Source: Acidobacteriota bacterium (GTDB taxonomy: Bacteria > Acidobacteriota > Blastocatellia > Pyrinomonadales > Pyrinomonadaceae). From it: a stretch of DNA of 64,000 nt. The position numbers and the translations under genes are program-made. The notes beneath the pieces were generated by a model. That model made no database searches, was not told the DNA's origin, and saw only the letters and a list, made by a program, of their open reading frames with translations. The stretch is from contig QHXI01000048.1 of the NCBI GenBank assembly GCA_003222895.1, forward strand, positions 62,001-126,000, written 5' to 3'. Below are positions 23,338-35,089 of the stretch, in pieces; position 1 is the first letter of the stretch, and each line of letters starts with the position of its first letter.

Positions 23338-24771
23338 TCATGCGGTGGGCTTTGAATGGTTGCCGGAACCGGACTTGCCGCGTCTATCGAACTCAATCTC
23401 ATGTCGCTTGATCATGCGGTCGAGAGTTTTGCGATCAACCTCCAGCAGGCGCGCCGCCGCTTGTTTGTTGCCCGCAGTGTGAGCCAGCACGCGGGCGACA
23501 TAGCGACCTTCAATGTCTGAAAGCGGCGGCCACTCTGCTTTCGCTGCCTCCGCTGGTTGATCGATCTTGCGGCCGTTGTCTGATTGTGCAGGTCGGTTTC
23601 GCACGCGCTCGGGCAAATCCTTTGTGCGAATGACGCCGTCGCACATCGCCGCCGCATGCACAACCGCGTTCTCTAACTCGCGAATGTTTCCCGGCCAGTC
23701 ATATCTCTGCAGCAGGTCCAAAGCTTCCGCCGCGAATTGCACTTTCGGACTAAGCGAAAAGACCCGCCCGGCGAAACTCTGTGCCAACGGCGGAATATCT
23801 TCGCGGCGTTCGCGCAGTGGCGGCAGCTTTATGGAAACCGCATTCAATCGATAGAAAAGATCGTTACGGAATCGGCCGGCTTCGACTTCCTGCTCGACGT
23901 CGCGATTGCTCGCGGCGATGACGCGCGCACTAACTTTCATCGTTTGATTCGATCCCACGCGACGAATTTCACCCTGCTGAAGCACGCGCAACAGCTTCAC
24001 CTGAAAGGCGGGCGTCGTCTCGGTAATTTCATCGAGAAACACCGTCCCGCCGTCGGCTTCTTCCCACAAGCCGCGGCGATCGCGATCGGCGCCGGTGAAC
24101 GCGCCTCTCACGTGCCCAAACAATTCAGATTCGATCAGCTCTGCCGGAATGGCGCCGCAGTTCACTGCCACGAATGTCTTGTCCGCGCGTCCGCTGCGTC
24201 GATGCAAAGTCGACGCGACCAGTTCCTTACCTGTGCCCGACTCACCGGTGAGCAGCACGGGCAAGCTCGTGCTCGCGACGCGTCCAACTTGCTTCATTAC
24301 TTCTATGAAAGCATGACTGCGCCCAACCAGATCGATGTCCGATTCATAGCTGCCTCCGCGTTGGCCTGCGGACAAGCGCGGCGGCTTACTGGTAATTTGC
24401 TCGCGCAGCGCAGCCGAGAGCGATTGCAGGTCTTCCGCTCCGAACGGTTTCAGCAAATAATCGTAGGCGCCAAACGCTGTCGCATCCAACGCTCCGGCTG
24501 CGTTGCCGTGTCCGGTCATCAGAACAACTTTCGCGTCCGGCTGCTCTTCTTTGAATTTGCGTAGCACCGCGTAACCGTCAGCATCGCCTAGCATCACGTC
24601 GGAAAAAACAATCGCCCATTTCTCGTGGTCGAGCATTTCGAATGCTTCTTCTGCCGAGGCCGCGGGCCGAACCGCCCACCCGTCAGCCGCGAGCACGGTA
24701 CAAACAAAATCACGCACCGACTGCTCATCATCGATCACCAATGCCGGCAATATTCTTTCCATAACCTTCAC
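23338..24771 (-). CDS. NtrC-family sigma-54-dependent response regulator
   Basis: A 477-residue activator: receiver domain (about 10-125; VFSDVMLG with phospho-acceptor Asp), AAA+ sigma-54 interaction domain (about 155-385; GESGTGKE Walker A, GAFTGA loop intact, SNRD and the arginine finger region), and a Fis-type HTH at the C-terminus ([22 protein letters not shown]). A Gly/Ser-rich tail ([15 protein letters not shown]) follows. GTG 24771 has a GGGAG site and starts 2 bp after the upstream stop. It is the last gene of a tightly packed six-gene operon and its likely transcriptional output. Confidence 0.95.
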
Positions 24772-24773
24772 AG

Positions 24774-34300: not shown

Positions 34301-35089
34301 CAGGTACTCAGCAACCTGCATCGTTGAATTCAATCCCGAAGGAGGTTGCGACACCGGTCTTACCAGGTCAGAGAACACATCGCCCTGAGTATTTGCGAAG
34401 TACAGACTTGCCTGGCCGCCTAGCAGATCGGTTAATTGCTTGCGAAGATCGGGGCTTGACGCGAGCCGCCGCCAGCGCACCAGATAGCCCAAAGGCTTTC
34501 CTGAATCGTCTCTTACTTGAGCTACCGCCGGATAGACTATGGTCTCGTTGATGAACCGGATAGCGCCAACGGCCCGGAATGGCTCGACGTTGCATTGATT
34601 AAATAATTCATCGATCTTCTCCTGCTCTGGCTTTGCGGAATCGGGTAGCGTCAAAGCAAGCGTCCGATCAACTTTCCATAATTCAGTCTGAACTCCTCCG
34701 ACATCTTGAGGACTCGTGAATTGCTTAAGCGTGTTGAGCGCTTCGGATCGGTTCATGGCAGAGGGGTCCTGCAGGAACCTGCGCACTGGCGACTCGTTAG
34801 CGACCGCGTAGGTGCGGGCCATCAAAATCACAGATGATTGCTGAAACAAACTGGCGAGTTGTTGAGTCAGACCCTCCAGCCGTTGCCGACTAACGTTAAA
34901 TGCAGAATCTTTAATCTCTCGATAGGAATACCAGGTGAATGTGCTGACGGTTAAGAGCAGCAACGTGCCGAAGAAGAGAGGTAATCGCCGCTTAATCGGC
35001 AAGTCAAGAATCGAAAAGCGCGGCGCAGCCGCCTCAGCTCTTTCACTGTCGCTTTTTTTTTGTGGTCTCAAACTATTGTTGACGATCAC
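31331..35089 (-). CDS. Membrane sensor kinase: Cache-HAMP-PAS(x5)-HisKA-HATPase
   Basis: A 1252-residue kinase. TM1 near 38-56, periplasmic dCache-like sensor (about 60-300), TM2 near 305-325, HAMP (about 325-380), then five PAS/PAC modules (about 390-995). Four of these end in very similar blocks ([25 protein letters not shown]). HisKA ([17 protein letters not shown]) and HATPase ([20 protein letters not shown]) follow. Phosphotransfer motif resembles phytochrome-type kinases, matching the adjacent Rcp1-like receiver. The three near-identical PAS copies look like recent internal duplication. Confidence 0.93.
   Translation of the reverse strand: [1252 protein letters not shown]

Follow-up and report, generated by a model that had tools for sequence, protein, structure and literature searches.

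A probable branched phosphosignalling locus of an acidobacterium with a putative sigma-54-dependent target beside its NtrC-type activator gene

What do the outputs of an operon with three histidine kinases act upon, and do its genes belong together as one unit? These questions are raised by six consecutive genes, g1 to g6, of a soil Acidobacteriota bacterium (family Pyrinomonadaceae; GenBank assembly GCA_003222895.1), which occupy positions 23338-35089 of the stretch analysed here, all on the minus strand and in the order g1-g2-g3-g4-g5-g6. That stretch, the window, comprises 64,000 nucleotides (nt) of contig QHXI01000048.1 (positions 62,001 to 126,000), and the host genome has 4.77 Mb in 167 contigs. 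A preliminary description had read the locus as a phosphorelay operon with two outputs, cyclic di-GMP (c-di-GMP) hydrolysis and sigma-54 transcription. The main new result is a sigma-54 promoter-like site that lies beyond the operon, on the g6 side, and is followed by a structured RNA and a Ser/Thr protein kinase gene. We read the locus as a branched multi-component phosphosignalling system, at a probability of about 60%, in which one arm would lower c-di-GMP and the other would switch on the adjacent RNA and kinase unit.

The promoter-like site, RNA and kinase gene beyond g6

The last gene, g6 (23338-24771, minus strand), encodes a response regulator in which Pfam recognises REC, Sigma54_activat and HTH_8 (PF00072, PF00158 and PF02954). 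GAFTGA is read in its sequence, and together with the receiver, the AAA+ domain and the Fis-type HTH this places g6 in the NtrC type. On the same strand, 91 nt past the g6 stop, stands a sigma-54 -24/-12 promoter-like site, AAGGCACGCTGCTTGCT (23231-23247), called from its promoter score and conserved position. For comparison, g1 was searched in 60 relatives and g5 and g6 in 119 family genomes, and the neighbourhoods were then read; the seven genus genomes are numbered G000 to G006 (G000 being that of the window), and L numbers denote individual loci. The site follows g6 in all seven loci with a Ser/Thr kinase gene there, namely the window, L039, L138, L139, L166 and L167, which represent six genus genomes, and L056, which was added beside the genus set and whose site scores 18.5, below the cut-off. 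It also follows g6 where the next gene is a different one (L151, L152, L157, L160, L162, L163, L170, L182 and L213): in L151 and L160 it encodes a receiver and in L170 and L182 a REC-HD-GYP protein, with the L170 site 562 nt downstream of g6, beyond an opposite-strand open reading frame (ORF).

Counted over the family, 15 of 46 loci have a site at the right spacing in the 600 nt that follow g6 (cut-off 19.5 of 21.7); as the loci are related, these 15 are not independent. Six wrong spacings gave 0, 0, 0, 0, 1 and 1 loci, the antisense strand at the right spacing gave 0, and Markov sequences gave a mean of 0.33 with a maximum of 3 in 200. Lowering the cut-off to 18.5 yielded 17 loci, against 0, 3, 1, 0, 2 and 3 at the wrong spacings. 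The score weights were fixed from the sigma-54 consensus before the comparison, and the cut-off of 19.5 was picked after the first sites had been seen. Left out of the count were L053, L054, L055 and L057 (on the same contigs as L138, L139, L140 and L039), L058 (an NtrC-type gene of an unclassified bacterium, at 43% identity), L175 (27 nt downstream), L215 (no downstream sequence) and L146 (g6 split); L178 and L208 are included with short downstream sequences of 440 and 345 nt. A wider search returned 80 loci, of which 7 were considered; the other 73, L058 and L059 being annotated among them, were mostly at or below 43% identity. No sigma-54 site of the listed strength was found before g1 or within the operon. 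The genome has one PF04552 match (rpoN, 6.4e-58) and about 20 strong sigma-54 activator matches, one of which, besides g6, is inside the window.

Between g6 and the promoter-like site lies a palindrome, TTTCACCACGGTGAAA (23315-23330), a candidate activator site identified by sequence pattern. The pattern TTTYACCNNGGTRAAA has a single match in the 4.77-Mb genome, at these very positions, and the palindrome TTyACCrCGGTGAA recurs 81-84 nt before the promoter-like site in the window, L138, L039 and L166.

Downstream of the site, an alignment fold defines a conserved structured RNA (22975-23222, minus strand), which could be a leader of the kinase gene or a separate small RNA. It runs up to a gene for a PknB-like Ser/Thr protein kinase (21781-22974, minus strand; Pfam and NCBIfam), the probable downstream target. 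In all seven loci compared the RNA extends to the kinase gene, the distance from promoter-like site to kinase start being 145 to 330 nt. The alignment holds six of the seven sequences, the short L167 being left out. Without the promoter, its RNAalifold energy is -14.1, against a mean of -3.0 (standard deviation 2.1; z -5.2) in 300 column shuffles that preserve gap and conservation classes, none of which reached as low. Changes on both sides are seen in 16 of 29 pairs (shuffle mean 8.0), and 87.6% of alignment cells pair in the structure, compared with 40-49% when it is slid along, a generous control since the structure was derived from the same six-row alignment. Folded alone, the window RNA gives z -2.8 (233 nt) or -3.8 (248 nt). 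Two C-rich stretches recur, one pairing over a long range with GGGG and the other forming the loop of the last hairpin. This hairpin (23010-23032, minus strand), with its CUCCCA loop and a U run behind it, was identified by a terminator rule and by comparison; the rule calls it terminator-like in L138, L139 and L166, and not in the window, L039 or L056. As shuffled regions give 0.3-0.6 terminator-like matches each, and L138 has a second, earlier one, the evidence for a terminator lies in the shared place and not in the number of matches. An Rfam search of 501 bases returned no family above threshold and two sub-threshold matches, small ORFs within the RNA showed no likeness between loci when compared by eye, and a DNA search across the genus with the whole spacer matched strongly only in G006 besides the window. 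Hfq is encoded in the genome.

The kinase gene goes with g6. An ortholog (68-79% identity) lies beside a g6 copy in six of the six genus genomes that have g6, and the second g6 copy of G002 (L140) has no Ser/Thr kinase beside it. In the seventh genome, G005 (100% complete), no g6 match was found at a cut-off of 1e-120, and the kinase ortholog is missing too, the best kinase match being paralog-like at 63% over part of the protein.

At two further loci, L159 and L161, g5 and g6 point away from each other, and the sigma-54 site is found before g6, at a distance of 188 or 135 nt, with none downstream, an arrangement that suggests autoregulation there.

The probable phosphodiesterase arm and the history of the operon

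The second output would run through g5 (24774-26585, minus strand), by Pfam and motifs a REC-GGDEF-EAL protein and a probable c-di-GMP phosphodiesterase response regulator. In the window protein EGDEF replaces GGDEF, so that it falls outside the motif definition of a diguanylate cyclase (GG[DE]EF); the RxxD I-site is kept and the EAL residue set is full. Across 32 aligned g5-type proteins, the window included, all 11 checked EAL positions (the catalytic set) are kept in 32, the I-site in 8, the first Gly of the cyclase motif in 8, and GG[DE]EF in one.

At 24 of 48 family g6 places a phosphodiesterase-type response regulator is encoded no more than 1.6 kb away from g6. Thirteen of these have a same-strand GGDEF-EAL gene, which precedes g6 except in L174, where it follows (at L146, also among the thirteen, g6 is interrupted by a stop), and seven have one on the opposite strand (L151, L157 and L159-L163, the L163 copy being cut by a contig end). 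At the remaining four a REC-HD-GYP gene follows g6 (L170, L172 and L182 by Pfam, L171 as read from the sequence); the receivers of these proteins are 56-58% identical to that of g5, and HD, HHE and GYP are seen in three of the four, L171 having GYT. Seen from the other side, g6 adjoins 17 of the 28 listed matches that span g5 from receiver to EAL end; among the other 11 listed, a contig end truncates the g6 receiver in L150 and ten have no g6, with the contig ending right after g5 in L153 and L156. Given the intact EAL domains, the rarity of GG[DE]EF and the REC-HD-GYP proteins in its stead in four relatives, c-di-GMP hydrolysis is likely to be the constant output. The two outputs proposed in the preliminary description are evolutionarily linked, and not within this operon only, through the phosphodiesterase genes near g6, the constant EAL residues and the sigma-54 site beyond g6. 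Replacement of EAL by HD-GYP beside the same type of activator suggests that lowering c-di-GMP is the selected partner function of the sigma-54 switch.

Upstream of g5 and g6 lie four genes rich in receivers and kinases, for which the domain assignments follow Pfam. g1 (31331-35089, minus strand) is a histidine kinase with a membrane sensor part, HAMP, five PAS domains, HisKA and HATPase; g2 (30916-31359, minus strand) is a stand-alone receiver (Response_reg) of Rcp1/RcpA type, whose nearest solved structures include RcpA, RcpB and Rcp1; g3 (29384-30919, minus strand) is a REC-PAS-HisKA-HATPase kinase; and g4 (26590-29391, minus strand) is a hybrid with REC, GAF, two PAS domains, HisKA, HATPase and a second REC. 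As read by eye, the acidic pair, the phospho-Asp and the Lys are kept in all the operon's receivers, and the H-box and ATP-binding boxes in all three kinases, g1, g3 and g4. No Hpt domain was matched by Pfam in the six proteins; a genome-wide search for one was not made. The junctions, read from the sequence, are overlaps of 29, 4 (ATGA) and 8 nt followed by gaps of 4 and 2 nt, as had been described before; the 4- and 8-nt overlaps depend on the chosen ATG starts (30919 for g3, 29391 for g4), the mechanical ORFs beginning further upstream. The domains described earlier likewise agree with Pfam, apart from the Cache domain assigned to g1: in the sensor part of the window protein and six relatives Pfam recognises HAMP only. 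A profile search against the Protein Data Bank gave only a weak match (E=0.01), to the McpH sensor, and a single-sequence structure model was unusable (pLDDT 41).

The complete six-gene order is present in one other genome, G001 of the same genus (L039), and is followed there too by this Ser/Thr kinase gene, so the neighbourhood is not unique to the window genome. It is complete in two of the seven genus genomes, G000 and G001, and its first part is also found as a separate cassette; the six-gene unit as such looks young. In the rest of the genus, G002 has g4-g5-g6 twice, G003 and G004 (L166 and L167) have g4 and g6 with no g5 between them and retain g6, the promoter-like site and the Ser/Thr kinase, and the G006 contig stops just above g5. 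The triplet g4-g5-g6 recurs within the family (L039, L050, L056, L139, L140, L141, L142, L149, L152 and L175, one extra small gene separating g4 from g5 in L149), and g4 is the kinase most often beside g5 or g6. A g3-type kinase precedes the triplet in L039, L050, L139, L141 and L149. These three genes are, by this comparison, the older core.

The core is kept without a g1-type kinase core and g2 in L050, L139, L140, L141 and L149. Conversely, the g1 kinase and g2 stand with a REC-kinase-REC hybrid and without g5 or g6 in L043, L046 and L049, and likewise in L040 and L041, where the hybrid's parts are split over two ORFs. It is this cassette that the window's g1 kinase, g2 and receiver of g3 resemble, so the window operon combines the core with an input cassette. 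A sensor-HAMP part and a g3-type kinase form one protein in L050 and L141, and a cassette may have been inserted into a single ancestral gene of this kind; a six-sequence tree of the sensor part groups the window with L045, whose kinase is of g1 type (support 0.80), and puts L039 beside the L050/L141 pair (0.78), a split that does not decide for or against this origin.

Upstream of the operon (35707-42428, minus strand) the window encodes a NarL-type regulator, a PAS-GAF-HisKA_3 kinase and a 1215-aa PAS-GAF hybrid kinase. The NarL-type kinase and regulator pair of the window spans 35707-38575; L050, L139, L140, L142, L149 and L152 likewise have such a pair ahead of the core, and in L141 only the NarL-type regulator was seen within the stretch read.

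The proposed branching and its alternatives

In the branched system, activated kinases would phosphorylate g5 and g6. Phospho-g5 would hydrolyse c-di-GMP and so lower its level, and phospho-g6 would oligomerise and, from a site close to where its own gene ends, open the sigma-54 promoter, from which the RNA and the Ser/Thr kinase would be produced. The window and G001 would have a second sensor unit joined in front, made up of the g1 kinase, g2 and the g3 receiver, as an extra membrane input to the core. The fusion of a g1-type kinase and a g2-type receiver into one hybrid kinase ORF (L043:10565-13339) suggests that g1 most likely phosphorylates g2, and seven loci (L043, L045, L046, L047, L049, L142 and L175) have a g3-like receiver joined to the N-terminal side of a g4-like kinase, a hint that such a receiver feeds the hybrid. 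The DHp domains of the kinases could act as the histidine intermediate in place of Hpt. This scheme takes from the sequence the kinase, receiver, EAL and GAFTGA motifs, the linkage of phosphodiesterase and activator, the positioned promoter-like site and the RNA with its kinase gene; kinase-to-receiver phosphorylation, the actions of phospho-g5 and phospho-g6 and the routing of phosphate are drawn from family knowledge. Compared with the earlier reading the target is sharper and more testable: one NtrC-type activator beside a probable phosphodiesterase can now be given a candidate binding site and, as candidate targets, a promoter, the kinase gene and the folded RNA. More tentatively, one input may be split between c-di-GMP breakdown and a sigma-54-driven structured regulatory RNA with C-rich loops, Qrr-like outside the vibrios, with partial read-through or attenuation dosing the Ser/Thr kinase; we hold this elaboration to be rather doubtful.

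A number of observations weigh against the branched scheme, beyond the relatedness of the counted loci and the generosity of the slide control. No such site lies downstream of g6 in 31 of the 46 loci, and sites also occur upstream of g6, four in sense (L159, L161, L163 and L174) and two in antisense orientation. Across the genome the sigma-54 motif shows no enrichment (17 matches against 22 for the reversed control), so that support for the promoter comes from its conserved position, and with some 20 activators in the genome another one could use it. The palindrome is kept in four of the seven loci and is missing in L056, L139 and L167. For the RNA, the structure conservation index is low at 0.16 (100 shuffles: mean 0.04, maximum 0.155), and the single-sequence folds of L039 (z -0.85) and L056 (z -1.3) are weak. 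On the phosphodiesterase side, 24 of the 48 g6 places have no such regulator within 1.6 kb, some of them near contig ends, and this, with the missing g5 of G003 and G004, indicates that the arm is dispensable. Finally, g1 to g3 may form a separate pathway.

Three other arrangements of the same parts can be weighed against these data. In the simplest, phosphate would travel in gene order, from g1 through g2, g3 and g4 to g5 or g6, as co-directional overlapping genes, intact receiver and kinase motifs and the shared order in G001 might lead one to expect. Such a linear relay is improbable when the full order is confined to two of seven genus genomes, when the core does without a g1-type kinase core and g2 in the five loci named above, when L050 and L141 fuse a g1-like sensor-HAMP part to a g3-type kinase, when the g1 kinase, g2 and a hybrid (in one ORF or two) occur without g5 and g6 in five more, and when no Hpt is among the Pfam matches of the six proteins. 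Somewhat better placed, though still unlikely, are two independent pathways on a shared transcript, a Cph1/Rcp1-like g1-g2 pair and a g3/g4-g5-g6 set. The pair is seen with different partners in several genomes of the family, and the core is found where the pair is missing, which speaks for their independence; L047, with its g1-g2-(REC-HK-REC)-g6 set (HK, histidine kinase), and the seven loci with a g3-like receiver fused before a g4-like kinase, which hint at wiring between the two, speak against it.

The third alternative concerns the region beyond g6, which might be no more than an extended 5' untranslated leader for the Ser/Thr kinase gene, driven through an unrelated sigma-54 activator. 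At each of the seven loci compared the RNA does reach the kinase gene, the terminator rule gives no match in the window copy, and the genome is well supplied with activators. The site follows g6, however, also at the nine loci where the next gene differs, and g6, promoter-like site and kinase are together in six genus genomes, g6 and the kinase both being missing in the seventh; we regard a leader unconnected with g6 as a minority possibility, and give preference to the branched scheme in which g6 acts on its neighbour.

Comparison with known systems and a possible second target

A literature search, judged by titles and the beginnings of abstracts, found no system of this composition. RocS1-RocA1-RocR and VieSAB each combine a kinase, a transcription factor and a phosphodiesterase regulator, and EspA is a hybrid kinase beside Ser/Thr kinases; the NCBIfam EspA and EspC models match g3 and g4 far below their cut-offs. 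Cph1/Rcp1-type systems are kinase-receiver pairs, which g2 recalls in its matches to the RcpA, RcpB and Rcp1 structures and in following a HisKA kinase, but Pfam recognises no phytochrome domain in g1. In the LuxO-Qrr system, qrr1 adjoins luxO.

The nearest described logic is that of the Hno network of Shewanella oneidensis (HnoK/HnoS-HnoB-HnoC-HnoD), where the output of two kinases divides among a transcription regulator, a phosphodiesterase regulator of EAL type and a regulator with a degenerate HD-GYP domain (PMC6335343). The likeness lies in a set of kinases that branches to a phosphodiesterase regulator and a transcription regulator, which here is proposed. Unlike that network, the window locus has three HisKA kinases, one of them a hybrid, and a receiver of Rcp1 type; GGDEF and EAL are joined in a single protein, and a sigma-54 promoter-like site stands beside the activator gene. 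Pfam gave no H-NOX (HNOB) match in the 19 proteins of the window that were scanned. Where an NtrC-type regulator is paired with a sigma-54 RNA, the nearest counterpart is the LuxO-Qrr quorum relay of Vibrio, in which an NtrC-type response regulator controls a sigma-54-dependent RNA (PMC10162802). g6 matches the LuxO structure 5ep0 at 1.9e-75, but it scores 333 bits against the LuxO model, whose cut-off is 800. The window differs further in that no Hpt was matched in the six operon proteins (the rest of the genome was not searched), and its RNA, unlike Qrr, belongs to no Rfam family above threshold and precedes a kinase gene, as a leader or as a separate RNA.

Elsewhere in the window, a second sigma-54 activator domain match (G000:C88:115581-116081) lies in a 507-aa ORF at about 53137-54660 on the plus strand. 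A second sigma-54-like site, ACGGCACGACGGTTGCT (46407-46423, plus strand), precedes a 440-aa ORF with no Pfam match and then a REC-kinase gene, and is a possible second target.

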